Shown: positions 20,533 to 50,059 of the stretch, one piece after another
Layout of the letters: every line of letters begins with the position of its first letter
How positions within the stretch are numbered: position 1 is the stretch's first letter
Source: Clostridiales bacterium
Lineage (GTDB): Bacteria; Bacillota; Clostridia; Lachnospirales; Lachnospiraceae
Length of the DNA stretch: 50,059 nt
Reading direction: 5' to 3'
Assembly: GCA_012520655.1 (NCBI GenBank)
Contig: JAAYNW010000080.1
Coordinates: forward strand, 1 to 50,059
Notes under the pieces: generated by a model
Database searches by the model: none
The model's input: only the letters and a program-made list of their open reading frames with translations
What the model was told of the DNA's origin: nothing
Position numbers and translations under genes: made by a program

Positions 20533-20559
20533 TGTAATGACAACTGAATATATTAAGAT

Positions 20560-20690
20560 GTCTTCAGGGCAGGGTGAGATTCCCGATCGGCGGTATAGTC
20601 CGCGAGCGTGCGAACGTTGGATTTGACATAGGTCAAGTCAGGATTTGGTGAGATTCCAAAACCGACAGTATAGTCTGGATGGAAGAAGAC
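20560..20690 (+). promoter_or_regulatory. FMN riboswitch (RFN element)
   Basis: The conserved RFN architecture is visible. The closing stem GTCTTC (20560-20565) pairs with GAAGAC (20685-20690). Inside are the conserved blocks AGGGCAGGGTGAGATTCCC, GGCGGTATAGTCCGCGAGC, GGTGAGATTCC and CCGACAGTATAGTCTGGATG. It precedes ribD, and an intrinsic terminator lies between aptamer and ribosome site. When FMN binds, the terminator should form and stop transcription of the riboflavin genes; without FMN an antiterminator should form. Confidence 0.97.
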
Positions 20691-20789
20691 GTGTTGAGAT
20701 TGTATTTAGTGCTTAAGAGGCTTTTTTATACTGTCAGAGCAGGATTTACTGTTCCGGCAGTTTATCGGGCACTTCTATATACTTTGATT

Positions 20790-36536: not shown

Positions 36537-36565
36537 TTGACAAACAAAAACTCAAAACATATAAT
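36537..36565 (+). promoter_or_regulatory. Perfect consensus sigma-A promoter for the cysteine/methionine leader
   Basis: TTGACA (36537-36542), exactly 17 bases, TATAAT (36560-36565): a full consensus match. Transcription should begin near 36572, about 46 bases before the leader peptide. A CCAAT/ATTGG inverted repeat (36567-36571 and 36589-36593) with TAGGAA between covers the predicted start and could be an operator, for example for the Rrf2 regulator at 34077. That link is inference. Confidence 0.85.
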
Positions 36566-36617: not shown

Positions 36618-36728
36618 ATGCAAAACAGAACAGTTGCGGTTAACGAAATCATATGTGCCTCCATTGGAATGCAGTGTTGCTGTATTTCTTGTTGTGTTAT
36701 GCAAAAATATAGTCTCTCCGGAGGATAA
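36618..36728 (+). CDS. Cysteine-rich leader peptide of a candidate cysteine attenuator
   Basis: A 36-residue ORF with a good AAGGGAG ribosome site (36603-36609), starting MQNRTVAVNEIIC and containing six cysteines, five of them packed as QCCCISCCV (codons 36675-36695). The Cys codons are TGT and TGC. It follows a consensus promoter and is followed by an intrinsic terminator 32 bases after its stop, before a sulfur amino-acid transport and synthesis operon. This is the layout of peptide-leader attenuators: ribosomes stalled on Cys codons when Cys-tRNA is scarce would let transcription continue. The C-terminal SGG is encoded by a GGAGGA that can serve as a ribosome site for a second small ORF (TTG 36730-36777, with two more Cys codons). 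A secreted cysteine-rich peptide is a less likely alternative. Confidence 0.75.
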   Translation: MQNRTVAVNEIICASIGMQCCCISCCVMQKYSLSGG

Positions 36729-36753: not shown

Positions 36754-36793
36754 AAAAAAGCAGTCAGGATTGTATGATCCGGGCTGCTTTTTT
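36754..36793 (+). terminator. Attenuator terminator ahead of the metNIQ-type operon
   Basis: The 5-prime arm 36760-36770 (GCAGTCAGGAT) pairs with 36777-36787 (ATCCGGGCTGC) with one wobble and one mismatch, hexaloop TGTATG, followed by TTTTTT (36788-36793). It lies between the leader peptide and the first structural gene, so every transcript from the consensus promoter must pass it. Confidence 0.85.
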
Positions 36794-36807
36794 ATGTAAT
36801 AGGCAAT

Positions 36808-36852: not shown

Positions 36853-36920
36853 GAAATATAAGATGCCATGAACGGCACTACTCGTGCTTATCTTATGAAA
36901 TCAAGAAAGGAGTGTGCGAC

Positions 36921-36944
36921 ATGCTTGCCACATCAACGGGCTAA
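36921..36944 (+). CDS. Seven-codon upstream ORF before the ATPase gene
   Basis: ATG 36921 has a strong AAAGGAG (36906-36912) eight bases upstream but is closed after seven codons (MLATSTG). It is not in frame with the ATPase, whose best start, ATG 36967, lies 22 bases after this stop and has no ribosome site. Reinitiation after the tiny ORF would explain the arrangement. It may equally be an unused relic. Confidence 0.4.
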
Positions 36945-36966
36945 GCTGTACAGCAGACATAATATT

Positions 36967-37755
36967 ATGGGGGACTACATCGAAATTAAAAATTTACATA
37001 AAACTTACCCTACGCAAAATGGACCGCTGGAGGTTTTGAGGGGAGTAGATCTTTCCATAAGGAAAGGAGAGATATTCGGAGCAATTGGCTTCAGCGGAGC
37101 AGGAAAGTCCACACTGGCCCGATGCATCAACAGGCTGGAAATCCCTGATAAAGGAGAGATTCTGATAGACGGTGTTGATATTTTAAAGCTGTCAAAGCAA
37201 GAGCTGTTAAGGGAACGACGAAAAATCGGAATGATTTTTCAAACCTTCAACTTGTTCGAGGCAAAGACGGTATATAGAAATATTTCATATCCGTTGGAAA
37301 TCAGCGGGGTACCCAAGGAAGAGATTAAACGACGTGTCCTGGATACGGCGGAGCTCGTAGGCTTGTCCGATAAATTATCCGCCTATCCGGGAGGACTTTC
37401 GGGAGGTCAGAAGCAAAGGGTAGGGATTGCCAGAGCTTTGGTAAATGACCCTCATCTCCTGCTGAGCGATGAAGCCACATCGGCTCTTGATCCTCAGACC
37501 ACGCTTCAGATCTTGGAACTGTTAAAGGAAATCAACAAGGCGACGGGAATTACGATTCTCATGATTACACATGAGCTGGATGCCATCAAATATACATGTG
37601 AGAGGATGGCAGTGCTTGAGGACGGACTTATTATAGAGTCGGGCCCGGTAAATGAAATATTCCATAATCCGCACAGTCATACAGGAGAGCTCTTCGCAAA
37701 GGTATTCCTTGAGTTCCAGAGAGCGGATAGCCTTATGAACGGAGAAGGAATCTAA
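36967..37755 (+). CDS. MetN-like ABC transporter ATP-binding protein without NIL domain
   Basis: A 262-residue ATPase of the methionine-uptake family. [16 protein letters not shown] is the usual N-terminus, followed by Walker [19 protein letters not shown], signature [15 protein letters not shown] and Walker [17 protein letters not shown]. MetN proteins usually reach about 340 residues with a C-terminal NIL domain that binds methionine and inhibits transport; here the chain stops at the end of the ATPase part, so that feedback is probably absent. The open frame extends to ATG 36868, but homology favours 36967. With the permease and lipoprotein downstream it forms an importer for methionine, cysteine/cystine or a derivative. 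Confidence 0.88.
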
Positions 37756-37819: not shown

Positions 37820-38530
37820 ATGAGTTTATTGGATACACCTCTTTGGGAGGTAATTAAAGGTTCATTTGCTCCGGAGGTATGGGGGCGTATAGCGCCGGCT
37901 ATTTTTGAAACGCTTTACATGACGTTATTATCTTCGATTATCATGCTTATTCTTGGATTGCTTCTTGGAATTATGCTTACGGTGACAAATCCCAACGGAT
38001 TGGTGCCGATGGCAAGCCTTTATACCGGTTCGGGATGGTTGATTAACTGTCTGCGCTCCCTGCCGCAGATGATCATGATTATTTTAATGATACCGGTTGC
38101 CCGCCTGTTTTTTGGCAAGTCTTACGGTACGAACGCTTGTATCATTGCAATTGCGGCAAGCTGCATACCGATGTATGCGCGTATAGTGGAAAGCAGCTTG
38201 TTGGATATTGCCAAGGGCAAGGTAGAAGCCGCCAAATCCATCGGAAGCACAAACTTCCAAATTATCTTCCGCATACTTCTTCCGGAGACCGTCCCTTCCC
38301 TGATACGCGGATTTACGGTTGCGGTAATCGGGGTAATATCCATGACTGCTCTCGCGGGAATGTTCGGAGCAGGAGGAATTGGGGATATTGCTGTCCGGTT
38401 CGGTTATCAGCGTTTTCAGCATGATGTGCTTTTCGCGGCGGTATACATATTGATAATTCTTGTCCAGCTCGTGCAGTTTATTGGGGATTTCACTTCGAGG
38501 AGAATACTTAGAAAGAGAAATCTGTTATAA
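37820..38530 (+). CDS. metI: MetI-like ABC transporter permease
   Basis: A 236-residue permease with about five helices. LPQMIMIILMIPVARLFFG and AKGKVEAAKSIGSTNFQIIFRILLPETVPSLIRG (EAA loop) are MetI hallmarks, as is the GAGGIGDIAVRFGYQRF segment near the C-terminus. AAAGGAG lies eight bases before the start. It belongs to the importer with the flanking genes. Confidence 0.93.
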   Translation: MSLLDTPLWEVIKGSFAPEVWGRIAPAIFETLYMTLLSSIIMLILGLLLGIMLTVTNPNGLVPMASLYTGSGWLINCLRSLPQMIMIILMIPVARLFFGKSYGTNACIIAIAASCIPMYARIVESSLLDIAKGKVEAAKSIGSTNFQIIFRILLPETVPSLIRGFTVAVIGVISMTALAGMFGAGGIGDIAVRFGYQRFQHDVLFAAVYILIILVQLVQFIGDFTSRRILRKRNLL

Positions 38531-38596: not shown

Positions 38597-39532
38597 ATGA
38601 AGAAATTAAACTTATTACCTTTATTTGCTACAGTGATTCTTTCAACCGGTATTCTCGCCGGCTGCGGAGCGAAGGCCGACAACCCGGTACAGGAGACAAA
38701 AGCTGCCGTTACAGAAAGTACGGCAGATGCAGGCAGTGAGGGAAACGCAGATAGTGCGGAAGGTACAGACGGCGAAACAGACAGCGCTGCGGCGGAAGAA
38801 AAAGAAACTGTGACGATCAAGGGCATTGCGGATCTCGTACCGCATTCCGAGATTATCGAGTATGTAACGCCTAAGCTTGCGGAGCAGGGTATTATCGTTG
38901 AACTCGTAGCAACATCGGCAGATGCTACGACCAATGAGAAAACGGCAAAGGGAGAGATAGATTTCAATTATTTCCAGCATTATCCGTATTTGGAGGAGTG
39001 GAACACGACCAACGGTTTTGATTTAGTCAATGCGGGCGATATTCATGTGGAGCCTATCACGGCATATTCGGATAAGTATACGAGCACAGAGGAGATTCCT
39101 GATAATGCGGTAGTTGCGATTCCTAACGATGGAACAAATGAATACCGCGCCTTGCGTATTTTGGAGCAGAATGGCTTTATCAAACTGAATGAGGATACGG
39201 CTACTACATTAAGCGCTTCCCTGACCGACATCGAGGAGTACGTTCGTCCTCTGGAGATCGTTGAGCTCGATTCGGCCCAAATTATTCCAACCAGGGCAGA
39301 CTACGACTTTTTTATTACCAATACCAATAAAGCCTTAGAGGCAAAAATAACTTCCGCAAAGCTGTTCAGTGAAGGCAGTGACAGTCCGTATGCGAATATT
39401 ATCGCAGTGAAAGCTGAGGATAAGGATAATCCGGCAATCGTAGCTCTTGTCAAAGAACTTCAGTCGGAAGATACGAGAAAATTTATTGAAGAAAAATATG
39501 AAGGAGCCGTAATACCTGCCAACCTCAAATAA
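38597..39532 (+). CDS. metQ: MetQ/NlpA-family substrate-binding lipoprotein
   Basis: A 311-residue lipoprotein: signal helix, lipobox LAGCGAK with Cys near residue 23, then a long acidic Ser/Ala/Glu linker (about 25-70) and the NlpA domain. ADLVPHSEIIEYVTPKLAEQGI, GEIDFNYFQHYPYLEEWN, GDIHVEPITAYS and AIPNDGTNEYRALRIL are family motifs. It delivers D/L-methionine or a related sulfur amino acid to MetNI. Exact ligand unknown. Confidence 0.93.
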   Translation: MKKLNLLPLFATVILSTGILAGCGAKADNPVQETKAAVTESTADAGSEGNADSAEGTDGETDSAAAEEKETVTIKGIADLVPHSEIIEYVTPKLAEQGIIVELVATSADATTNEKTAKGEIDFNYFQHYPYLEEWNTTNGFDLVNAGDIHVEPITAYSDKYTSTEEIPDNAVVAIPNDGTNEYRALRILEQNGFIKLNEDTATTLSASLTDIEEYVRPLEIVELDSAQIIPTRADYDFFITNTNKALEAKITSAKLFSEGSDSPYANIIAVKAEDKDNPAIVALVKELQSEDTRKFIEEKYEGAVIPANLK

Positions 39533-39565: not shown

Positions 39566-40723
39566 TTGAAAAATTATGAATACTTCGAATCTGCGTTGAT
39601 TCATGGCGGTATATACGGAGATGAACGCACAGGTGCGGTAAATACTCCGGTGTATCAGACATCGACCTATATGCAGGATGGATTAGGAAAAAACAGAGGA
39701 TATGAATATTCACGTACAGGCAATCCGACAAGAGAGGCGCTGGAAGCGCTCATTGCGGAACTGGAGGGCGGAAAGGCAGGCTTTGCCTTTGCCTCCGGTA
39801 TGGCTGCAACTACTGCGGTACTCAGCCTTTTTAAGAGCGGCGATAAAATAGTGATATCGAGCAATGTATATGGAGGCACTTTTCGAGTATTAGATAAGGT
39901 ATTTCAAAGGTTCGGATTTCAGTATGTTATTGCTGATACGACCAATCTGGAAACGCTTGAAGAAGTGTTCACACCGGATGTGAAAGCTGTATTAATCGAA
40001 AGTCCTGCGAATCCGCTTCTTACGGTAACGGATATCGCCGCTGTAGCTAAGATAGCAAAAAGTAAAGGGGCCTTGCTCATTGTAGACAATACTTTTATGA
40101 CACCTTACCTTCAGCGTCCCTTGGAACATGGCGCGGATATCGTGCTTCATTCGGCTACAAAGTATTTGGGCGGGCACAGCGATTTGATTGCGGGCTTGGC
40201 CGTAGTAAAGACGGAGGAGTTAGCGGAAAGGCTTCACTTCATACAGAACGCAACCGGAGGAGTACTGCAGCCCTTTGACTCCTTCCTGCTAATCCGTAGC
40301 ATAAAAACTTTGGGTGTCAGAATGGATCGCCATGTGAGAAATGCCGTGGAGCTGGCGAAGCTGCTGCGGGAACATAAAGCTGTTAAGGCAGTATATTACC
40401 CGGGAATACCGGATTCTCAAGGTTATGAAATAAATAAAAGGCAGGCCAAAAGCGGCGGTGCCATGATATCCTTCGAGCTTCGTGACGGCTATGATACGCA
40501 CAGGTTTTTTGAGAAACTGAAGATCATAGCGCTGGCAGAAAGCTTGGGAGGTGTAGAATCTCTCGTATGCCACCCCGCAAGTATGACTCATGCCTCCATT
40601 CCGAAAGAAATTCGGGAAAAGGTGGGAATTACGGATGGCCTTATCCGGCTTTCCGTAGGGATTGAGAATGTAAAAGACCTTAGCAAAGATTTACAATCCG
40701 CAATAGAGAGGGCAAAGCTATGA
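39566..40723 (+). CDS. Cystathionine gamma-lyase / gamma-synthase-type PLP enzyme (MccB/MetB-like)
   Basis: A 385-residue Cys/Met-metabolism PLP enzyme. The PLP lysine is K199 in HSATKYLGGHSDLIAG. YEYSRTGNPTREALE and GMAATTAVL are substrate/cofactor segments and SLGGVESLVCHPASMTHASIP the C-terminal motif. The start is TTG 39566, seven bases after AAGGAGG. It overlaps the next gene by four bases. With that beta-synthase-like partner it suggests reverse transsulfuration (homocysteine to cysteine), as in the mccAB pair. Gamma-synthase cannot be excluded from sequence. Confidence 0.88.
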   Translation: MKNYEYFESALIHGGIYGDERTGAVNTPVYQTSTYMQDGLGKNRGYEYSRTGNPTREALEALIAELEGGKAGFAFASGMAATTAVLSLFKSGDKIVISSNVYGGTFRVLDKVFQRFGFQYVIADTTNLETLEEVFTPDVKAVLIESPANPLLTVTDIAAVAKIAKSKGALLIVDNTFMTPYLQRPLEHGADIVLHSATKYLGGHSDLIAGLAVVKTEELAERLHFIQNATGGVLQPFDSFLLIRSIKTLGVRMDRHVRNAVELAKLLREHKAVKAVYYPGIPDSQGYEINKRQAKSGGAMISFELRDGYDTHRFFEKLKIIALAESLGGVESLVCHPASMTHASIPKEIREKVGITDGLIRLSVGIENVKDLSKDLQSAIERAKL

Positions 40724-41631
40724 GTCTATATCAATCCATGCAGGAATTAATCGGTAATACACCTTTAGTCAGACTGAATCATCTCGGTTTTTCGGAAAGT
40801 ATGCAGGTTTATGCGAAACTGGAACTTTATAACCCTGCCGGAAGCGTCAAGGACAGGATTGGAAAATATATGATCGAGGACGCCAGAAATCGGGAAATGC
40901 TAAGACCCGGAGATACCATTATAGAGGCTACAGCGGGAAATACGGGAATTGGTATTGCATTTGCGGCTCTCAATCAAGGTTATAAGTTGATTTTTACTGT
41001 TCCGGAGAAATTTTCTCAGGAAAAGCAGACCTTGTTAAGAGCGCTCGGTGCAGAGATTATAAATACGCCGCTGGAGGAGGGAATGGCCGGAGCAATTAGA
41101 AAGGCGGAGGAACTTCGTGCGGCAATTCCGAATTCGGTAACGCTTGAACAATTTAAAAACGGGAGCAATCCTCTGGCACACTATGAAACTACCGGTCCCG
41201 AAATATATAAGGATTTAAACGGAAGCATTGATTACGTGGTTGCGGGAGCGGGAAGCGGCGGGACTTTTTCAGGAATACTGAAATATCTGAAAGAAAAAAA
41301 TCCGGACGTAAAGGGTGTATTGGCCGACCCGATAGGTTCTACGATAGGGGGAGGCGAACATGCTGATTATGAGATTGAGGGAATCGGCAATGATTTTATT
41401 GCGGATACCATGGATATGAGCCTTGTGGATAAGGTAATTAAGGTAAGTGACACCGAAGCATATGCTGAGGTAAAAAATATTGCCAAATATGAAGGAATCT
41501 TTGCAGGATCTTCGTCAGGAGCGGCCCTGGCAGCTGTGAGAAAGCTGGCTGAAACAGTTTGTTGCGGCAAGATAGTAGTAATTTTTCCGGACAGAGGAGA
41601 CCGCTATTTCGGCAAGCACATTTACGGTTGA
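40720..41631 (+). CDS. Cysteine synthase / cystathionine beta-synthase-type PLP enzyme (CysK/MccA-like)
   Basis: A 303-residue fold-type II PLP enzyme. K44 in NPAGSVKDRIGKYM binds PLP, EATAGNTGIGIAFAA holds the substrate loop, and GAGSGGTFSGILKYL binds the phosphate. It makes cysteine from O-acetylserine and sulfide, or cystathionine from serine and homocysteine. Tight pairing with the gamma-lyase favours the MccA role. In Bacillus, CysK is also the partner of CymR. Confidence 0.92.
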   Translation: MSLYQSMQELIGNTPLVRLNHLGFSESMQVYAKLELYNPAGSVKDRIGKYMIEDARNREMLRPGDTIIEATAGNTGIGIAFAALNQGYKLIFTVPEKFSQEKQTLLRALGAEIINTPLEEGMAGAIRKAEELRAAIPNSVTLEQFKNGSNPLAHYETTGPEIYKDLNGSIDYVVAGAGSGGTFSGILKYLKEKNPDVKGVLADPIGSTIGGGEHADYEIEGIGNDFIADTMDMSLVDKVIKVSDTEAYAEVKNIAKYEGIFAGSSSGAALAAVRKLAETVCCGKIVVIFPDRGDRYFGKHIYG

Positions 41632-41694: not shown

Positions 41695-42147
41695 ATGAAT
41701 ATTTTAAAAAATAAATATATTTACGGATTTTTAACCGTTGTAATCGGGTTTCTTATTGCAGCAGGCCCCCAGACTGTTTTTCAGGTCTGCGGAGTGCATG
41801 AACACTCTGAGAATGTGATGAAATGCTTTTGGACCGCACGTGCGGAATTGGGAGTCGGCGTCTCGATTTCTATACTCGGGCTGCTCTCCGCTATATTCGG
41901 CAATCCTATTCTGCGTCTTGGATTGACTGCCGGGGTTTTATTAAATGGGATATTGGCATTATTGATTCCTACGGTTTTAATCGGTGTCTGCGGGAGTAAC
42001 CATATGAACTGCCGCGCATTGACATTACCTGCCTTATCCGTACTGAGCATTCTTATTGTTGCAGTCTCCGTAATCCAAGCAGTTTACCTGCGTTATACCA
42101 ACAAGGAAGGAACGCAAGAAGATGGAAAGCAAACCGTTAACGACTAG
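41695..42147 (+). CDS. DUF4418 family membrane protein
   Basis: A 150-residue membrane protein with four predicted helices. Conserved cysteines occur in the external or loop parts: QVCGVHEHSENVMKCFWT and GVCGSNHMNCRAL. This HSE...MKC pattern fits the DUF4418 family, whose role is unknown. It starts a set with an FtsX-type permease (26-base overlap) and an ATPase, so it is probably an accessory subunit of that transporter. Cysteines and histidines suggest metal or thiol binding. Confidence 0.8.
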   Translation: MNILKNKYIYGFLTVVIGFLIAAGPQTVFQVCGVHEHSENVMKCFWTARAELGVGVSISILGLLSAIFGNPILRLGLTAGVLLNGILALLIPTVLIGVCGSNHMNCRALTLPALSVLSILIVAVSVIQAVYLRYTNKEGTQEDGKQTVND

Positions 42148-43342
42148 AAGGCTGTCTGCATATAATTTGCGGAGCAAGCCGTTTCGAACAGCCGGACTCG
42201 TATTTGTAGTATTTCTTCTTGCTTTTGCAACATTTGGCGGCTCCTTGCTGTCACAGAGCTTAAAAAACGGTCTGGGAAGCTTAAAGGAGCGTCTTGGGGC
42301 AGATCTCGCCATAGTTCCGCTCAATCATGAAGCGGATTACGAAGGAATCCTCTTAACGGGGCAACCGGAAAAGTTTTATTTCGACCAATCGATTGAACAA
42401 CAGATTGAGCAGGTGGAGGGAGTCAGCAAGGTCTCTTCCCAGTTTTTTATCTCTACTCTTGCGGCGGCATGCTGTTCCGTACCCGTTCAAGTAATAGGCT
42501 TTGACCCCGATACGGACTTCGTAATTCAACCGTGGATTGGGAAAGTATATCACGAAAAAATCGGCGATGGTCAGATAATTGCAGGCAGCGATATTGTTCT
42601 TAACGACACGGGAACCTTAAAGTTCTTTAACGACACTTATAAAGTGGTAGCCCAGCTTGAAAAAACGTCTACAGGAATGGATTATTCCGTATATGCGAAT
42701 ATGAATACAATAAAGATGCTGGTCGCAGGAGCGAGAAAAGCGGGCATGAATCTGAGTGTAGATGTTTACGGTACGGACGTTGACCGCTCCATATCCACAG
42801 TGTTGGTAAAGCTAAAGAAAGGATATGATGCTGATACGGTCACTACAAATATCCGGCGGAAGATTTCCGGAATAAGTATAGTGAAGTCGCAAAATGTCTT
42901 TGCTTCAACTGCCAATAACATGGATGTTCTTCTTACCTTTATAAATACTATTACTTTCGTGACCTGGATGCTGGCCCTATTCGTCTTGGCGGTAATGTTT
43001 TCAGCAATGATAAACGAAAGGAAGAAAGAGCTTGCACTTTTACGTTCGGTGGGAGCGACGAGAAGGAAAATATGCGGAATTGTTCTTACGGAATCCTTCT
43101 TCATAAGCTTACTTGGAGGAATTCTGGGAACGGCGACAGCTTCGCTTATTATATTTCCGTTCAGCACATATACCAGGGAAAAACTGGGGCTTCCATATTT
43201 ACTTCCCGATGCGGCGGCAACGTTGCGGTTATTGGGAATGAGTCTTTTGCTTTCCTTTGCGGCAGGTCCCCTTGCGGCAGCGTATTCGGCCGTTAAAGGG
43301 AGCAAAGCGGAAGCTTATGTCTCCATAAGAGAAGGAGAGTAA
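42122..43342 (+). CDS. FtsX-family ABC transporter permease
   Basis: A 406-residue permease of MacB topology: helix at residues about 22-45, an extracytoplasmic domain (about 50-275) with a notable AACCSVPVQVIGFDPDTDF segment containing vicinal cysteines, and three C-terminal helices with the FtsX motif KKELALLRSVGATRRKICGIVLTESF. The vicinal Cys pair is unusual in MacB-like external domains and may bind metal or thiols. It overlaps DUF4418 and is followed five bases later by its ATPase. Confidence 0.9.
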   Translation: MESKPLTTRRLSAYNLRSKPFRTAGLVFVVFLLAFATFGGSLLSQSLKNGLGSLKERLGADLAIVPLNHEADYEGILLTGQPEKFYFDQSIEQQIEQVEGVSKVSSQFFISTLAAACCSVPVQVIGFDPDTDFVIQPWIGKVYHEKIGDGQIIAGSDIVLNDTGTLKFFNDTYKVVAQLEKTSTGMDYSVYANMNTIKMLVAGARKAGMNLSVDVYGTDVDRSISTVLVKLKKGYDADTVTTNIRRKISGISIVKSQNVFASTANNMDVLLTFINTITFVTWMLALFVLAVMFSAMINERKKELALLRSVGATRRKICGIVLTESFFISLLGGILGTATASLIIFPFSTYTREKLGLPYLLPDAAATLRLLGMSLLLSFAAGPLAAAYSAVKGSKAEAYVSIREGE

Positions 43343-43347
43343 TCGGC

Positions 43348-44061
43348 ATGACGTTAGAAGTAAAGAATCTTACGAAAGAGTATATTAGAGGCCGAACAGC
43401 ATTTAGAGCAGTAAATAATGTGAGCTTTGTCGTCCGGCCGGGAGATTTCATAAATATTATCGGACGTTCCGGCAGCGGGAAAAGCACGTTGGTCAATATG
43501 ATTGCCTGCCTGCTGTCGCCTACGGAAGGAAGCGTCGAGATAGACGGATTAAACATTACCTCTTTGAAGGATAAGGAGGCTTCCGTTTACAGAAATTCAA
43601 AGATAGGTTATATATCCCAAGGCCAAAGCACACTGGCAAGTCTTAATGTACTGGATAATGTTAGGGTTCCGTTTCACCTCTCGAAGAGAAAAGGAACTTC
43701 CGAAGAAGCGGCGCGTTCATTGCTCGAACAGACAGGAATTGCGCATTTGTCAGAGGCTTTTCCAAGACATCTCTCCGGCGGAGAACTGAAGAGAGTTGCA
43801 ATTGCGAGGGCATTGATAAATCAACCGGACTTTGTGATCGCCGATGAGCCTACCAGCGATTTGGATGTGCAGACAACGGCAGAAATTATGAATTTGTTGA
43901 AAAATGTTGCAGAAACGGGAACCGCGGTTATTATGATCACCCATGATATGGAGGCTTTGGAGTCTGGAAGCCGTACCTTTGTAATGGAGGCGGGGATTCT
44001 GACCGAGCGCGCATCTGATTTATCTCGGAGCGGTACTCAGCCCCTTCGATGCAGAAAATAA
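43348..44061 (+). CDS. MacB/LolD-type ABC transporter ATP-binding protein
   Basis: A 237-residue ATPase with Walker [14 protein letters not shown]-loop region GYISQGQSTLASLNVLDNV, signature LSGGELKRVAIARAL and Walker B FVIADEPTSDLD. It pairs with the preceding permease. The nitrogenase-like gene begins 22 bases after its stop, which implies cotranscription of the transporter with the nitrogenase-like set. Confidence 0.93.
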   Translation: MTLEVKNLTKEYIRGRTAFRAVNNVSFVVRPGDFINIIGRSGSGKSTLVNMIACLLSPTEGSVEIDGLNITSLKDKEASVYRNSKIGYISQGQSTLASLNVLDNVRVPFHLSKRKGTSEEAARSLLEQTGIAHLSEAFPRHLSGGELKRVAIARALINQPDFVIADEPTSDLDVQTTAEIMNLLKNVAETGTAVIMITHDMEALESGSRTFVMEAGILTERASDLSRSGTQPLRCRK

Positions 44062-44083: not shown

Positions 44084-45559
44084 ATGGGAAATATAGATTT
44101 GCAGATACCTGAGGTATCAATCAGAGAAATACGCCTGGGTTCTATTACGGGCTTTCAGGGGGGAGCGGAGGAACTTGTTAACAGCTCCCGCTGTGGGCTG
44201 AGGGACAAGAACAGAGCCTTTTCTCAGTGTCTCGGCTGTTCCGCCTCACAGGCGGCATGTATGGTTATTTTGGTTCAGGATGCGGCTGTCATCAGCCACG
44301 GGCCGGTAGGATGTTCTTCCTGCTTTCATGAATATGCGTTTACTTACAGGGTCAATTCTCCGCTTCGCGGCGTTGATAATCCTACACAGCGTAAGGTTTT
44401 CTCAACCAATCTGCAAGAGACGGATACCGTCTACGGAGGAGGACAGAAATTGGCGAAAGGAATTAGGGAAGTATACGAGAGAACGCACCCCAATGCCGTT
44501 TTTGTGCTGACCACATGTGCCGCGGGAATCATAGGTGACGATGTGGAAAGCGTATGCAATGAGGCAGAAGAGGAGTTGGGAATTCCTGTCGTAGCGATAT
44601 TCTGTGAAGGCTTCCGTTCCAAGGTCTGGACTACCGGATTCGATGCAAGCTATCACGGCATTGCAAGAAAGCTTATAAAACCCGCCCGCCGGAAACGAGA
44701 CGATGTAATTAATGTCATCAATTTCTGGGGCTCGGATATTTTCAGCGACTGGTTTAAAGCCTTTGGGGTAAAACCTCGCTATATCACGCCGTATTCTACC
44801 GTAGAGAATTTGTCCAGGGCTTCCGAAGCTGCGGCTACAATTCAGATTTGTCCTACCTTAGGTTCCTACCTCGGAGCTGCATTGGAGCAGGAATTCGGTG
44901 TGCCGGAGATTAAGGCGGCACCGCCGTACGGCGTAGCACAGACAGACCGGTGGTTTCGTGAATTGGGAAGAGTTCTTCATAAGGAAGAGGAGGCGGAGCG
45001 TCTGATTGCCGCCAAGAAAGAAGAATATCTGCCCAGAATCGAAGAATTGAGAGTAAAGTTAAAGGGGAAAACCGCATATGTGACAGCCGGAGCTGCGCAT
45101 GGTCATGCGCTGTTATCTATACTTGGGGAGTTGGGAATGAAGGCAAAGGGCGCCGCTATTTTCCATCATGATCCGCTTTATGACAGTGGCAGCGAAGAGA
45201 GCGATTTACTGGCAAGGAGAGTGGAGGAATATGGGGATGTCCCTAATTTCAATATATGTAATAAACAGGAATTCGAACTGGTAAATATGCTGAACCGTTT
45301 GCGGCCTGACGTTCTATTGGCAAGACACGGTGGAATGACGCTTTGGGGGGCAAAGCTCGGGATTCCGTCACTTCTTATCGGAGATGAGCATTACAGCATG
45401 GGTTACGAAGGAATTATGCGTTATGGGGAGCGCATTGTTGAAACATTGGAAAATGATGAATTTGTAAAAAACCTGGAGAAGCATGCCATCAATCCTTATA
45501 CCCAATGGTGGCTGCAGCAGGAACCGTATACTTTTTTAGAGGGAGGTAATATACAGTGA
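44084..45559 (+). CDS. Nitrogenase-like component 1, NifD-like subunit
   Basis: A 491-residue nitrogenase component 1-fold protein. P-cluster-type cysteines appear in the expected places: SQCLGCSASQ (C49/C52), HGPVGCSSC (C77, like NifD C88) and TTCAAGIIGDD (C145, like C154). C256 in QICPTLGSYLGAALEQEFGVP lines up with the FeMo-cofactor ligand C275. The cofactor His region is altered: the NifD HSWDYSGPYHGYDG is replaced by GDEHYSMGYEG. Presence of nifB and nifX nearby supports a NifB-derived cofactor. Gene context (cysteine synthesis before, metY after) argues for an organosulfur substrate instead of N2. Homologous systems include MarDK, VnfD/AnfD and Cfb/Bch; the extra cofactor Cys argues against the latter two Cfb/Bch types. 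Confidence 0.85.
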   Translation: MGNIDLQIPEVSIREIRLGSITGFQGGAEELVNSSRCGLRDKNRAFSQCLGCSASQAACMVILVQDAAVISHGPVGCSSCFHEYAFTYRVNSPLRGVDNPTQRKVFSTNLQETDTVYGGGQKLAKGIREVYERTHPNAVFVLTTCAAGIIGDDVESVCNEAEEELGIPVVAIFCEGFRSKVWTTGFDASYHGIARKLIKPARRKRDDVINVINFWGSDIFSDWFKAFGVKPRYITPYSTVENLSRASEAAATIQICPTLGSYLGAALEQEFGVPEIKAAPPYGVAQTDRWFRELGRVLHKEEEAERLIAAKKEEYLPRIEELRVKLKGKTAYVTAGAAHGHALLSILGELGMKAKGAAIFHHDPLYDSGSEESDLLARRVEEYGDVPNFNICNKQEFELVNMLNRLRPDVLLARHGGMTLWGAKLGIPSLLIGDEHYSMGYEGIMRYGERIVETLENDEFVKNLEKHAINPYTQWWLQQEPYTFLEGGNIQ

Positions 45560-46893
45560 GCGGAATGATCGAACAGGAACGTTATACATGTGCCATCGGA
45601 GCACTGCAAAGTGTGGTGGCTATTCCCAAGGCTGTACCGATTCTTCATTCCGGTCCCGGCTGTGGAAATATGATTCAAGGTTTCTTTGAGCGTTCCAAAG
45701 GCTATGCCGGAGGAAATACTTCTCCATGTACCAATTTCAGCGAAAGAGAGGTTGTTTTCGGGGGAATTGATCATTTGAGGGAAATAGTATCCAATACTTA
45801 TAAAGTGCTCGATACCGATTTGCAAGTAATTTTGACTGGATGTACTGCAGGCATCGTAGGCGATGATGTGGAATCACTGGCAGATGAGTTCAGGGATTCG
45901 GGAAAACCTATCGTGTCTGTGGAGACGGCCGGTTTCAAGTGCAATAATTTTGAATCTCACAGCCTCGTGGTAAATGCGATTCTGGATCAGTATGTCAGCA
46001 TATTCGAAAATGAGAATCCCCAAAGGAGCGAGAAGAATACGGTAAACCTATTTGCTTCTCTGCCTTACCAGGATCAGTTCTGGAAGGGAAATCTCAGGGA
46101 GTATAAACGTCTGTTGGAGGGGATTGGGCTAAAAGTACATATTCTTTTCGGATCTCAATCGGAGGGGGTAGAGGAATGGAAACGAATTCCCAGAGCAAAC
46201 TTCAACATTCTTGTGTCTCCCTGGTACGGCTTTCCCATTGTTGAACATCTGGAAGCAGTTTATGAACAGCCGTACACACATTTTCCTAACGTTCCGATAG
46301 GTGCCAATGAAACGGAACGTTTTCTGCGGCAGGTTATCGTGTTTGCCAAGAAACAGGGGGCTCAGATTGATGAAGAAGCTGCCGAAGAGTTTATAAGGAA
46401 AGAACGTGAGGCTTACTATGAAGAGATTGATAATCTAGCAACCTTCCTGCTGGAGTTCCGTTACGGACTTCCGAATCACGTACATATACTGCACGATGCG
46501 GGATACGTAGTCGGACTCTCCAAGTTCTTGCTCCACGAGGTAGGAATTGTACCTAAGGAGCAATTCGTTACGGACAATACGCCGGTGAAATATCAGGAGC
46601 AGATTAAAGAGGAGCTTAGGAGTACCTCTAAGAAACGTGATATTCCTCTGATTTTTGAGCCGGATGCGGGAAAGGCGCAGGAGACGATACGTTCTCTAAG
46701 CCATCAGGGCAGAGGTCTTATTATAGGAAGCGGTTGGGATAAAGAGCTTGCGAAGGAAAAGAATTATGATTTCCTGCCCGCTGCGTTACCCACACCATAC
46801 CGCCTTGTACTTACGACAAATTACGTCGGCTTTACTGGAGGGCTCAGGGTCATTGAAGATATTTATGATACGGTATTATCGACATACCGGTAA
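45556..46893 (+). CDS. Nitrogenase-like component 1, NifK-like subunit
   Basis: A 445-residue partner subunit. P-cluster-type cysteines are C12 (TCAIGAL, like NifK C70), C36 (HSGPGCGNM, like C95) and C96 (TGCTAGIVGDD, like C153); C58 is extra. It lacks the long N-terminal arm of true NifK, so it is shorter (445 against about 520). It ends with a standard component 1 tail (PLPTPYR-type LPTPYRLVLTTNYVGFTGGL). Start GTG 45556 overlaps the D-subunit stop by four bases after GGGAGG, so the two are coupled and should form a heterotetramer. The reductase NifH is not in the window and would have to lie downstream or elsewhere. Confidence 0.85.
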   Translation: MSGMIEQERYTCAIGALQSVVAIPKAVPILHSGPGCGNMIQGFFERSKGYAGGNTSPCTNFSEREVVFGGIDHLREIVSNTYKVLDTDLQVILTGCTAGIVGDDVESLADEFRDSGKPIVSVETAGFKCNNFESHSLVVNAILDQYVSIFENENPQRSEKNTVNLFASLPYQDQFWKGNLREYKRLLEGIGLKVHILFGSQSEGVEEWKRIPRANFNILVSPWYGFPIVEHLEAVYEQPYTHFPNVPIGANETERFLRQVIVFAKKQGAQIDEEAAEEFIRKEREAYYEEIDNLATFLLEFRYGLPNHVHILHDAGYVVGLSKFLLHEVGIVPKEQFVTDNTPVKYQEQIKEELRSTSKKRDIPLIFEPDAGKAQETIRSLSHQGRGLIIGSGWDKELAKEKNYDFLPAALPTPYRLVLTTNYVGFTGGLRVIEDIYDTVLSTYR

Positions 46894-46905
46894 GGAGGAA
46901 GAACG

Positions 46906-47235
46906 ATGAGAGTTGCCTTTGCCAGCATAGACGGCACATGGGTGGATCAGCACTTCGGAAGCGCCCGATATTTTCAGATTTTTGACTTGAAGGAGGAGAC
47001 ATATGAGTTCGTCGAAGCCCGTCGGACGGAAAGCTACTGCCGCGGCAATTGCGAAGGGGGCTTTGAGCATCTGCTGAAAGCACTTGATGACTGTGACGCC
47101 ATTTTCGTTGTGAAGATCGGGCAGGGCGCTGCGGCGTTCATGATTAACCATGGGAAAAGAGTTTTTGAAGCGTATGGACCTGTAAGAGTAATTTTAGATC
47201 GGCTTTTAAATGGAGATTTGATGGAAGGGAGGTAG
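46906..47235 (+). CDS. NifX/NafY-like iron-molybdenum-cofactor-binding domain protein
   Basis: A 109-residue single-domain protein of the dinitrogenase iron-molybdenum cofactor biosynthesis family. MRVAFASIDGTWVDQHFGSARYFQIFDL is the diagnostic start (conserved DQHFGSA), and GFEHLLKALDDCDAIFVVKIGQGAAAFM follows. Such proteins carry NifB-co or related cofactors between NifB and the enzyme. It lies between the NifK-like and NifB genes, 12 and 4 bases away. Confidence 0.9.
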   Translation: MRVAFASIDGTWVDQHFGSARYFQIFDLKEETYEFVEARRTESYCRGNCEGGFEHLLKALDDCDAIFVVKIGQGAAAFMINHGKRVFEAYGPVRVILDRLLNGDLMEGR

Positions 47236-47239
47236 AAGT

Positions 47240-48115
47240 ATGGCAAAATCCTTTGAAGAATTAGCAATGTCACATCCCTGTTTCGCGGTGGGAGCAAAGG
47301 TGAATAAAGGCAGAGTACACCTTCCGGTTTCTCCGGGGTGTAATATTCTTTGCCGTTTCTGTGACCGAAAGATAAACGATGTAGATATTCGGCCGGGAGT
47401 TACGGCAACCATTATTACGCCGGAGGAAGCGCTGGAGGTAGTACGAAAGGCAGTAGAGCTATGCCCGGACATTACGGTTGCGGGAGTTGCCGGTCCCGGA
47501 GATACGCTGGCAACGCCTTATGCGTTGGAAACTTTTCGCTTAATTAAGAAGGAGTTTCCGAACATGATTAAGTGCATGAGCACCAATGGTCTTCTCTTGC
47601 CGGAATACCAACAGGATATTATCGACGTGGGAATTGATTCTCTTACCGTTACGGTCAATGCGGTAGATCCGGAGATTCAAGCTCGGATTTGCAGCGGTAT
47701 TACTTATAAAGGAAAAAGGTACGAGGGAAGGGAAGCTGCCGAGATATTAATCCGCAATCAGCTTAGCGGCATAGAAGCAGTTGCCGATGACGGGGTTACC
47801 GTAAAGGTAAATACTGTTCTGATACCGGAAATAAATGCAGATCATGTGGAGACGGTTGCCAGAACAGTTTCGCAGGCAGGAGCAAAAATTTACAATATAA
47901 TACCACTTATCCCCCAGCATGAGCTGAGCTGGTGTTCAGCACCCGGCTGCGGCTTATTGAGTGAGGCCAGAAGCAAGGCGGAGCAATACATCAATGTGTT
48001 CAGACATTGCCAAAGATGCCGTGCCGATGCTGCAGGGATACCCGGAGGGCAGGATTTTTCCAAGCAGATTTATATCAGGCCCGTTGTTCAGGAAAATACT
48101 TTTTCTCACGGTTAA
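47240..48115 (+). CDS. nifB: NifB, radical SAM cofactor maturase
   Basis: A 291-residue radical SAM enzyme that makes the carbide-containing [Fe8S9C] precursor (NifB-co). The SAM cluster cysteines are C34, C38 and C41 (SPGCNILCRFCDRK). GVAGPGDTLATP, CMSTNGLLLP and TVTVNAVDPEIQARI are NifB motifs, and the C-terminal HCQRCRADAAGIPG supplies the auxiliary cluster ligands. It lacks the C-terminal NifX fusion, which is supplied by the separate upstream gene. Its presence shows that the nitrogenase-like enzyme probably needs a NifB-type cofactor. Confidence 0.93.
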   Translation: MAKSFEELAMSHPCFAVGAKVNKGRVHLPVSPGCNILCRFCDRKINDVDIRPGVTATIITPEEALEVVRKAVELCPDITVAGVAGPGDTLATPYALETFRLIKKEFPNMIKCMSTNGLLLPEYQQDIIDVGIDSLTVTVNAVDPEIQARICSGITYKGKRYEGREAAEILIRNQLSGIEAVADDGVTVKVNTVLIPEINADHVETVARTVSQAGAKIYNIIPLIPQHELSWCSAPGCGLLSEARSKAEQYINVFRHCQRCRADAAGIPGGQDFSKQIYIRPVVQENTFSHG

Positions 48116-48162
48116 TAACACTGGGAGGAATACGCCTATTTTATGAAGGGAGGTGATGGCAT

Positions 48163-48360
48163 ATGGAATGTGAGTGTAGTGTGTCAGACTGTTGCAGCAT
48201 TATAAAAAGAAAAGGAGAATTTATATGTCAGAGGAGACAATCAAAACAGCATATCGGTTCGATACGCAGAAGGTCAGAGCGGGCTATGAGCCGAAGGATC
48301 ACAAATATGCGGTATCACCGCCTATTTACCAAACCGCGTCTTATGATTTCAGGGACGTAG
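48163..48360 (+). CDS. Cysteine-rich upstream ORF overlapping metY
   Basis: ATG 48163 has a very strong GGGAGGTGAT ribosome site (48148-48157). The first eleven residues, MECECSVSDCC, hold four cysteines (codons 48169, 48175, 48190, 48193). The frame then continues over the metY ribosome site and start (48211-48227) and ends inside metY at 48360. Codons after about 20 are in another frame of metY and look like shadow. The likely role is regulatory: ribosomes stalled at Cys codons would leave the metY start free, whereas fluent translation would cover it. A genuine 65-residue protein is less likely. Confidence 0.5.
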   Translation: MECECSVSDCCSIIKRKGEFICQRRQSKQHIGSIRRRSERAMSRRITNMRYHRLFTKPRLMISGT

Positions 48361-49547
48361 AAAATGCAAAAAATTTATTCAGCTTCAAGGAGCACGGGTT
48401 TTTATACACCCGTGTAGGAAATCCGACGGTTGCCGTATTGGAAGAGAGGGTGCGCATACTGGAAGGAGCTGCGGCAGCTATCGCTGTGGCTTCGGGAATG
48501 GCAGCTATCAGCTATACGCTGTTAAACCTTGCCGAAGGCGGCGGGAGAATACTGACCTCACCCTTTTTATATGGAGGCAGCGCCGACAGCTTTAAAAAAA
48601 TTTATCCAAAATACGGCATTCATTTCGATATAGCAAAAAATCTGGATAATCCGGAGAAGCTGTCGGAAGAGATTAAGCCCGATACAAAAGCCATCTATAT
48701 CGAGAGCATCAGTAATCCGAATACTGTCCTTCTCGACTTGGATGCCATCTCCAAAGTAGCGCACGAACATGATATTCCGGTAGTGGTAGATAATACGGTG
48801 GCGACTCCGTATCTGTATCATCCGATTGAGCATGGTGCCGATATCGTTGTTTACTCCGCAACAAAAGGACTAAGCGGTCATGGGAATCTTATCGCGGGTC
48901 TGATCCTGGAAAGCGGAAAATTCAACTATGCGACAGAAAAGTTCCCTCAATTTTCAGAAAAATATTATACTCTGCGCAATGAAAGCGGTACGCATAGAAG
49001 TTTTCTGGAAGTCTTTCCCGAAGCGCCCTTTACTTCAAGAGTACGGTTTAACTACCTGAATTACTTCGGAGCCGCACTTTCACCCTTTGATGCGTATCTG
49101 TCCATTATCGGACTAGAGACGCTGTCGGAACGTCTCTCCAAGCAGGTGGAAAATGCTCATAAGCTTGCCATATACCTTTCTTCCCACGAAGGAGTGGAAT
49201 GGGTGAGATACCCGGCATTGGAATCAAGTCCTTACCATGAGTTGTATAAACGTGATTTCGGTAAGGGAGCAGGAGGTCTCCTTGCCTTTGGATTCAAAGG
49301 AACCGAAAAGCAGAAAGAAATCTTTTTAAATTCCGTAAAATTGTTTCACTATCATGTCAATATCGGTGATGCGAGATCATTAATCGTTAATTCGCCGCAG
49401 ACTACGCATGGAGAATTGGATGAACAGGAAAAGGAAGCGGCGGATATTCCGGAAAATCTTATTCGTATATCGGCAGGATTGGAAGATTCCGAAGATTTGA
49501 TTTCAGATTTGGAACAGGCGTTTCAAGAAGCGTTGTCCGCAAATTAG
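48225..49547 (+). CDS. metY: O-acetylhomoserine sulfhydrylase / aminocarboxypropyltransferase
   Basis: A 440-residue PLP enzyme of the Cys/Met family, longer than MetB as usual for MetY. YSATKGLSGHGNLIAG contains the PLP lysine K214. FLYTRVGNPTVAVLEERV, GMAAISYTLLNLAEGG, and the C-terminal FHYHVNIGDARSLIVNSPQTTHGELDEQ are typical of O-acetylhomoserine aminocarboxypropyltransferases, which use sulfide to make homocysteine or methanethiol to make methionine directly. It follows nifB by 109 bases and is covered by a Cys-rich upstream ORF. Start ATG 48225 has AAAGGAG seven bases upstream. Confidence 0.93.
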   Translation: MSEETIKTAYRFDTQKVRAGYEPKDHKYAVSPPIYQTASYDFRDVENAKNLFSFKEHGFLYTRVGNPTVAVLEERVRILEGAAAAIAVASGMAAISYTLLNLAEGGGRILTSPFLYGGSADSFKKIYPKYGIHFDIAKNLDNPEKLSEEIKPDTKAIYIESISNPNTVLLDLDAISKVAHEHDIPVVVDNTVATPYLYHPIEHGADIVVYSATKGLSGHGNLIAGLILESGKFNYATEKFPQFSEKYYTLRNESGTHRSFLEVFPEAPFTSRVRFNYLNYFGAALSPFDAYLSIIGLETLSERLSKQVENAHKLAIYLSSHEGVEWVRYPALESSPYHELYKRDFGKGAGGLLAFGFKGTEKQKEIFLNSVKLFHYHVNIGDARSLIVNSPQTTHGELDEQEKEAADIPENLIRISAGLEDSEDLISDLEQAFQEALSAN

Positions 49548-49565
49548 TTGAGGAGGGAAGATAAT

Positions 49566-50059
49566 ATGAAGATGGGAATGAAAAGCAGTGCAGTTTTTTC
49601 ACTTATTTTAGCCGGTGTGTTAGGGTTTACCGGCTGCGGAGCAAAGGAAGAGGCTGCGGCGAGCGCTACATCCGCGGCAGAAACGGATTACAAATACGGA
49701 AAAATAGATATTCCGGGCAAGGACGGAGCACTTTGCGGGGCACCTATTTATATAGCATATGAAAAAGGATTTTTTGCAGAGGAGGGCTTTGACGTGAATC
49801 TCATCTCTGCAGATACGGAAACGCGGAAAATCGGACTCAATAACGGAACCATCCCGATTGTAAACGGAGATTTCCAGTTCTTCCCTTCCATTGAAGAAGG
49901 GGTAAAAGTAAAGGTGGTCGACGGGCTTCATTACGGTTGTATCAAATTTGTCGTACCCATTGATTCGCCGATACAGACTGTAGAAGATTTTAAAGGCAAG
50001 AAAATAGGTGTTGACGAAATTGGTGGAACTCCGCACCAGGTTGCCAGCGTGTGGCTTGA
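49566..50059 (+). CDS. NitT/TauT/Ssu-type substrate-binding lipoprotein, cut by the right edge
   Basis: The first 164 codons of a binding lipoprotein. The signal helix ends in lipobox LGFTGCG (Cys near residue 24), then an Ala/Ser/Glu linker. GKDGALCGAPIYIAYEKGFFAEEGFDVNLIS and IGVDEIGGTPHQVASVWL are features of SsuA/TauA/NMT1-type binding proteins. It starts 18 bases after metY with AGGAGGG, so it is in the same operon and probably feeds the nitrogenase-like/MetY pathway with a sulfonate, thioether or related compound. Permease and ATPase genes are expected beyond the edge. Confidence 0.88.
   Translation, partial: MKMGMKSSAVFSLILAGVLGFTGCGAKEEAAASATSAAETDYKYGKIDIPGKDGALCGAPIYIAYEKGFFAEEGFDVNLISADTETRKIGLNNGTIPIVNGDFQFFPSIEEGVKVKVVDGLHYGCIKFVVPIDSPIQTVEDFKGKKIGVDEIGGTPHQVASVWL

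Follow-up and report, generated by a model that had tools for sequence, protein, structure and literature searches.

Contig JAAYNW010000080.1 (C49, 50,059 nucleotides) of Clostridiales bacterium GCA_012520655.1, a member of the Lachnospiraceae with a draft genome of 2.85 Mb in 97 contigs (94.6% complete), is referred to as the window over its full length. Towards its 3' end lie genes for a nitrogenase-like protein pair, DK, together with genes for NifX- and NifB-like proteins and for enzymes of cysteine and methionine metabolism, here termed the D operon. A preliminary description drawn from the sequence had proposed a C-S bond-cleaving reductase in a Firmicute, either related to methylthio-alkane reductase (Mar) or novel and supplied by an adjacent ATP-binding cassette (ABC) transporter; the host does belong to that phylum. 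The features of the region are the following, with the basis of each assignment in brackets:

36537..36565, plus strand: sigma-70-type promoter TTGACA-17-TATAAT, 12/12 consensus (consensus scan)
36618..36728, plus strand: leader peptide of 36 codons with the run Q-C-C-C-I-S-C-C and a Shine-Dalgarno-like GGGAGAG ahead of it (sequence and scans)
36756..36795, plus strand: intrinsic terminator 3' of the leader peptide (fold of -18.5 kcal/mol and T run)
36868..37755, plus strand: MetN-type ABC ATPase, start possibly at 36967 (sequence and relatives)
37820..38530, plus strand: MetI-type permease (sequence and relatives)
38597..39532, plus strand: MetQ/NlpA-type lipoprotein (TIGR00363, 133.7 bits, cut-off 228.85)
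39566..40723, plus strand: MccB-like enzyme of the cystathionine gamma-lyase/homocysteine desulfhydrase family (NF005810, 557 bits, cut-off 594)
40720..41631, plus strand: MccA/CysK-family enzyme (TIGR01136, 336.3 bits, cut-off 344.15)
41695..44061, plus strand: DUF4418 protein, FtsX-like permease and ABC ATPase, three genes in the interval from MccA to D (open reading frames and family matches)
44084..45559, plus strand: Mar-like D subunit, 491 amino acids (PF00148, 302 bits)
45556..46893, plus strand: MarK-like K subunit, 445 amino acids (PF00148, 208 bits)
46906..47235, plus strand: NifX-like cofactor-binding protein (PF02579)
47240..48115, plus strand: NifB-like protein, radical SAM part only, 291 residues (best model NifB TIGR01290, 275.1 bits, cut-off 343.65)
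48192..49547, plus strand: MetY-type O-acetylhomoserine sulfhydrylase, ATG start at 48225 (TIGR01326, 467.6 bits, cut-off 495.1)
49548..50059, plus strand: N-terminal part of an SsuA/NMT1-type binding lipoprotein, cut by the contig end (NMT1 and, weakly, SsuA)

Separate NifX-like and NifB proteins, as well as metY and an Ssu/Tau-type lipoprotein downstream, had been announced in the preliminary description and were recovered with the family models given. The cysteine/methionine block that it had placed directly upstream is real (MetNIQ-MccB-MccA) but is set apart from D by the three genes at 41695-44061, a trio that is not found between MccA and D in the related locus L059. Elsewhere in the window, a flavin mononucleotide riboswitch was detected at 20556-20694 (110.5 bits), which is unrelated to the D operon.

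Both component 1 subunits carry the three P-cluster-type cysteines ascribed to them earlier. Those of D are C52, C77 and C145 according to the alignment, while C12, C36 and C96 of K are invariant in all 88 aligned K rows. C256, previously noted as resembling a cofactor ligand, shares a column with MarD Cys270, and H415 and R414 do so with His429 and Arg428 of Loop I; all three are invariant in 40 of 40 rows. The cofactor histidine of D is therefore not lost and resides on a Mar-type loop. As judged by alignment, DK is shown to keep the residues that would ligate a P-cluster and an Fe8S9C (L-type) cluster. The three P-cluster cysteines in each of D and K and the Cys/His/Arg cofactor site are shared with MarBHDK from Rhodospirillum rubrum (PDB 9fmg, 9d9u; PMC12552129), and counterparts of NifB-type MarB and NifH-type MarH are present as well. 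Pocket residues named for MarD, not stated as defining, are Cys73, Gln74, His194, Trp195, Phe199 and His375 (PMC12552129), four of which are kept in D (C59, W182, F186 and H361). By the residue equivalence given in the same study, W182 and F186 occupy the columns of NifD Gln191 and His195.

The absence of a nifEN scaffold next to a NifB protein, already remarked upon for the window, extends to the genome as sequenced: the profile search returned just two PF00148 genes, D and K, and therefore no nifEN. The NifB-like protein spans positions 4-286 of the 441 of TIGR01290, so that the C-terminal part of NifB is missing, and it aligns over residues 5-282 of 291 with the solved structure of NifB, 7jma (289.8 bits). 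At loci L047-L049 a single open reading frame matches NifB and NifX together. NifX may replace NifEN as the cofactor carrier, and the assembly line seems to be reduced to NifB plus NifX.

A search beyond position 50059 had been recommended for nifH, and the gene was found on contig C34 (locus L007), the end of which continues the cut binding-protein gene. Read inward, C34 encodes the C-terminal part of a binding protein, a permease, an ATPase and NifH, which bears out the adjacent ABC transporter across C49/C34. When both fragments are aligned to the intact binding-protein gene of L059, the window part reaches nucleotide 569, with the C34 fragment starting at 579, such that about 10 nucleotides appear to be missing between the contigs. 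The entire gene order is intact on one piece in L059, and we infer a C49-C34 join that is well supported by these alignments. C34 holds the only full NifH of the genome (420 bits), three further matches reaching only 27-40 bits. Directly 3' of NifH a RACo-like gene (2Fe-2S and ASKHA domains; L007 7960-9450) is present; we do not claim it as a partner of the D operon, as L059 has an opposite-strand LysR-type gene at the same place.

Trees of D were calculated for 107 proteins (quick) and for 69 (careful, without 38 of the 107 rows, i.e. near copies, long branches and outgroups) and drawn with midpoint roots. The window protein resides in a large group (85 rows in the quick and 61 in the careful tree) apart from the MarD group of four rows, both with 100/99 in the careful tree. 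It does not fall into any canonical N2-fixing group, and the predicted fold, like the tree, places it with Mar. Placement among N2 fixers with nifEN elsewhere in the genome had been named beforehand as the outcome in favor of a nitrogenase, and the result went the other way on both counts. On these trees, D is a member of a separate clade of Mar-like enzymes, which we prefer over a position as sister of Mar.

The window group spans Bacillota, Spirochaetota, Synergistota, one Elusimicrobiota bin and Chlorohelix from the Chloroflexota (plasmid, 57.6%). In the same family, relatives of D occur in 47 of 397 genomes at E <=1e-40; twelve of these, the window genome included, encode a full-length protein with at least 55% identity, and one further match is partial at 54%. 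Across the phylum, 13 of 398 genomes contain a relative at 1e-60. The family search revealed no relative of D in G315, a genome of the same genus. Cultured relatives include Clostridium sporosphaeroides DSM 1294, whose operon is uninterrupted (D 86%), and Ruminococcus albus. Some genomes harbor more than one kind of nitrogenase-like DK pair: G769 (L150, L151, L152) contains six D-like open reading frames at three places, and in G578 (L153) three D types share a stretch of about 12 kb, close to MetY and MccAB. A copy of the set resides at locus L142 on plasmid NZ_CP128401.1 of Candidatus Chlorohelix allophototropha (28285-49736), accompanied by genes for MetY, an ABC importer and an extra nitrogenase component 1. 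In L058 (7088-19109) a 31% relative of D adjoins glutamine-synthetase-like, URO-D-type, B12-binding and RACo-like genes. The published MarHDK-like genes in the vicinity of type I mlp gene clusters are a further case of nitrogenase-like genes that anaerobes keep next to genes for sulfur and methionine metabolism (available part of PMC10418091). L058 is the sole lookalike here and differs in that it belongs to a different clade, shows a gap in place of Arg428 and has methionine at Trp195.

The neighbourhood of D was surveyed in 91 loci related to one another, made up of the best 80 matches listed and 11 loci from the same family; after removal of three loci from contigs already included and four without a D reading frame above 50% identity, 84 remained. 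All counts are lower bounds, given that many contigs are short and that a length filter hid genes (e.g. those for K and NifB in L059) behind longer shadow reading frames. Within 8 kb of a window-group D, NifH was found in at least 54 of the 84 loci, NifB in at least 53 and NifX in at least 49, accompanied by MccB-type enzymes (at least 36), MccA (33), MetI (27), MetQ (24) and SsuA (15), the last four being minimum values as well. The importer varies, with SsuABC in the group of the window, a Dpp-type system in C. akagii and MetNIQ in many loci. For Chlorohelix, two permeases beside a 557-residue binding protein were taken for the Dpp-type kind. In R. rubrum, marBHDK presumably adjoins the sulfur genes A0774-A0791. 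According to the available part of PMC4958253, this region encodes two O-acetylhomoserine sulfhydrylases, a cystathionine gamma-synthase, MetN and MetQ/NlpA proteins. Possible further points of difference from the R. rubrum system are the distinct NifX gene of the window, its SsuABC importer and the cysteine/methionine leader.

The leader peptide at the head of the region points at regulation by sulfur amino acids. Open reading frames that are no longer than 60 codons and contain five cysteines in eight residues occur four times in 1.72 Mb of loci, one of them being the window leader, the entire fold of which has a z of -2.97. Promoter-like sites number 28 in the region versus 23.9 in shuffles; that at 36537-36565 is the sole 12/12 match, and a consensus match by itself is no evidence for function. 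In L059 (460-725) a related peptide at 548 has the same setting with a terminator of -28.5 kcal/mol, and same-strand genes then run towards D. A scan of 102 loci for a reading frame with Shine-Dalgarno sequence, terminator and at least four cysteines or methionines in ten residues yielded 20 leaders, 14 of which are situated up to 400 nucleotides upstream of a gene of the set (background at most 6.7%) and six elsewhere. D itself follows in seven of the 14 (L064, L067, L070, L072, L114, L120 and L127). By single residue, nine of 14 leaders were near for cysteine and also nine of 14 for methionine, compared with Phe 0/17, Leu 2/49, Ser 5/60 and Arg 6/55, the highest other values being Asn 2/3, Tyr 1/3 and Gly 5/15; relatives are not independent here, and some of the rows for other residues represent the same leaders. 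When no terminator was required, the scan listed 21 entries, many of them probably due to chance. For 14 chosen leaders (12 of the 14 near ones, without L072 and L117, plus L048 and L136 at 7231) antiterminator pairs sum to 121 versus a mean of 96.85 and a maximum of 118 in 100 shuffles. Cys- and Cys/Met-rich leaders before D operons are apparently sulfur amino-acid attenuators. Leaders with terminators of this kind can be inspected at L127 9760-9970, L120 1318 and L070 9797.

Cysteine leader attenuators have been described in Actinobacteria (available part of PMC1262725) and for cysS in Rhodobacterales (available part of PMC8632094). They share with the window a short reading frame with clustered cysteine codons before a sulfur-related gene and, in the Rhodobacterales case, a terminator; the leaders reported here differ from what these excerpts describe in occurring in Bacillota and Synergistota, in often mixing Cys and Met codons and in preceding nitrogenase-like genes. 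Within the library searched, we recognized no Cys leader at nitrogenase-like loci, and the word nitrogenase is absent from the available part of PMC8632094. Riboswitch control of the D operon was considered and rejected because an Rfam scan of the window had no hit at the operon. Over seven relatives, Rfam yielded a single T-box (L071 3754-4003, about 6 kb from D), and the reading frame 3' of it is presumably trpB-like.

That an enzyme close to Mar is encoded among genes for cysteine and methionine metabolism, together with a dedicated importer and what appears to be a leader that senses sulfur supply, makes it very probable that this gut-type anaerobe scavenges organic sulfur with the D operon and does not fix nitrogen. 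We consider it likely that the operon is built around a Mar-like reductase, whose cleavage of thioether C-S bonds would feed MetY. NifB would make the Fe8S9C cluster and NifX would bring it to DK, which would receive electrons from NifH at the expense of ATP. DK may then cleave the C-S bond of a thioether imported by the SsuABC-type and/or the MetNIQ-type system, releasing methanethiol or a close analogue as the thiol. MetY would join this thiol to O-acyl-homoserine, yielding methionine or homocysteine, and MccA/MccB would hand sulfur on to cysteine. A thiol product is in line with the combination of MetY and a homoserine acyltransferase family member, the latter being encoded in 14 of 15 genomes (the exception is 68% complete). 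Shortage of Cys-tRNA would turn the operon on via the Cys-rich leader and terminator. The reaction, the importer substrate and the response of expression to cysteine and methionine supply are all deduced from sequence and gene context.

Several observations weigh against this assignment. SsuABC-type importers are known for sulfonates and similar anions and are not known for neutral thioethers, and even the closest proteins of solved structure resemble the SsuA/NMT1-type binding protein of the window only weakly (3.7e-15). D is located outside the R. rubrum MarD clade, and the MarD group pairs with the L050 type rather than directly with the window clade (97/91 in the careful tree, flagged as a long-branch join, and 98/95 in a further tree), with thin sampling close to MarD (four rows; seven in the further set). 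V181 and M60, beside the cofactor, replace MarD His194 and Gln74. MetY was seen within 8 kb of D in at least 35 and an SsuC relative in at least 16 of the 84 loci, many of them on short contigs. MetE and S-methyl_trans (PF02574) genes in the genome would allow methionine formation without the thiol route, which would then be an addition. A PF01077 sulfite/nitrite reductase is present in six of 15 genomes tested, most loci lack a leader by our scan (at most 14 of 102 have one near genes of the set), and for the window leader alone 57 of 100 shuffles gave an equally good antiterminator. The preliminary proposal is supported in its core by the sequence comparisons, i.e. the enzyme is Mar-related and linked to sulfur, although it does not belong to the characterized MarD clade.

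A more tentative possibility, to which we give somewhat less than even weight, is that the window group represents a second class of Fe8S9C C-S reductases apart from Mar, acting on an imported non-volatile, perhaps charged thioether that Mar does not use, with NifX in place of NifEN and with Cys/Met attenuators in anaerobes of several phyla.

Among the alternatives to thioether cleavage of the Mar kind, reduction of another imported sulfur compound survives best, though we regard it as unlikely: an S-alkyl amino acid or a thioether acid may be converted to sulfide or a thiol other than methanethiol, from which MetY would form homocysteine. The three kinds of importer (SsuABC, MetNIQ, Dpp) and the clade apart from MarD speak in its favor, and so does the site equivalent to MarD His194, where all 85 rows of the window group have V, M or I. 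Furthermore, window-type and MarD-type D occur in one locus in L098 and L153 (G578) and in one genome in G455, and this coexistence suggests different substrates. On the other hand, cluster ligands and sulfur neighbourhood are the same as for Mar. Histidine at the site is confined to the MarD group (four of four rows in one alignment, seven of seven in another, no other row of either) and may be a derived state, whereas V, I, L or M, mostly I or V, also occur in other Mar-like groups; the latter residues may thus represent the ancestral state, with little bearing on substrate choice.

A sulfonate reductase fed by SsuABC and releasing sulfite, similar to isethionate reductase IsrBHDK from Rhodobacter capsulatus, is very improbable. 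The comparison with Isr is by description and draws on the available part of PMC11423573. Both systems have a nitrogenase-like DK, NifH, a radical SAM protein, an SsuABC-type importer and a link to sulfur assimilation; Isr requires SsuCAB, and an SsuA-type binding protein adjoins the D region. According to the same source, however, IsrD lacks equivalents of NifD Cys62 and Cys154, two of the three cysteines at the P-cluster, and of the FeMo-co ligands Cys275 and His442, all of which the window has, with the cofactor histidine on the Mar loop. IsrB is described there as resembling NifB in the radical SAM motif only and as standing outside the NifB lineage, whereas the window protein is close to solved NifB. 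Isr releases sulfite, and a sulfonate reductase in the window genome would do so too. As no PF01077 sulfite/nitrite reductase was found in this genome (94.6% complete), sulfonates, which had been listed as candidate substrates, become unlikely. The family was also missing in nine of the 15 genomes tested and in seven of nine with SsuABC-linked D, the window's included (completeness is 68% and 84% for two of these seven).

The joint occurrence of NifH, NifD/K, NifX and NifB homologues would suit a divergent N2-fixing nitrogenase, an explanation that we consider next to negligible in view of the failure to find nifEN in the genome (94.6% complete), W182 and F186 at the NifD Gln191 and His195 sites, a tree and predicted fold that put D with Mar, and neighbours and leaders that belong to sulfur metabolism.

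With the Mar-like assignment, Fe-S cofactors of the nitrogenase type would take part in the routine handling of sulfur amino acids by anaerobes of the gut and rumen. A thioether substrate would mean that thiols are set free in the gut, along with small hydrocarbons or acids. The leader peptides may offer a simple handle on the purpose of the enzyme, sulfur and not nitrogen, and the His-to-Val site a ready handle on substrate choice within the Mar-like family.

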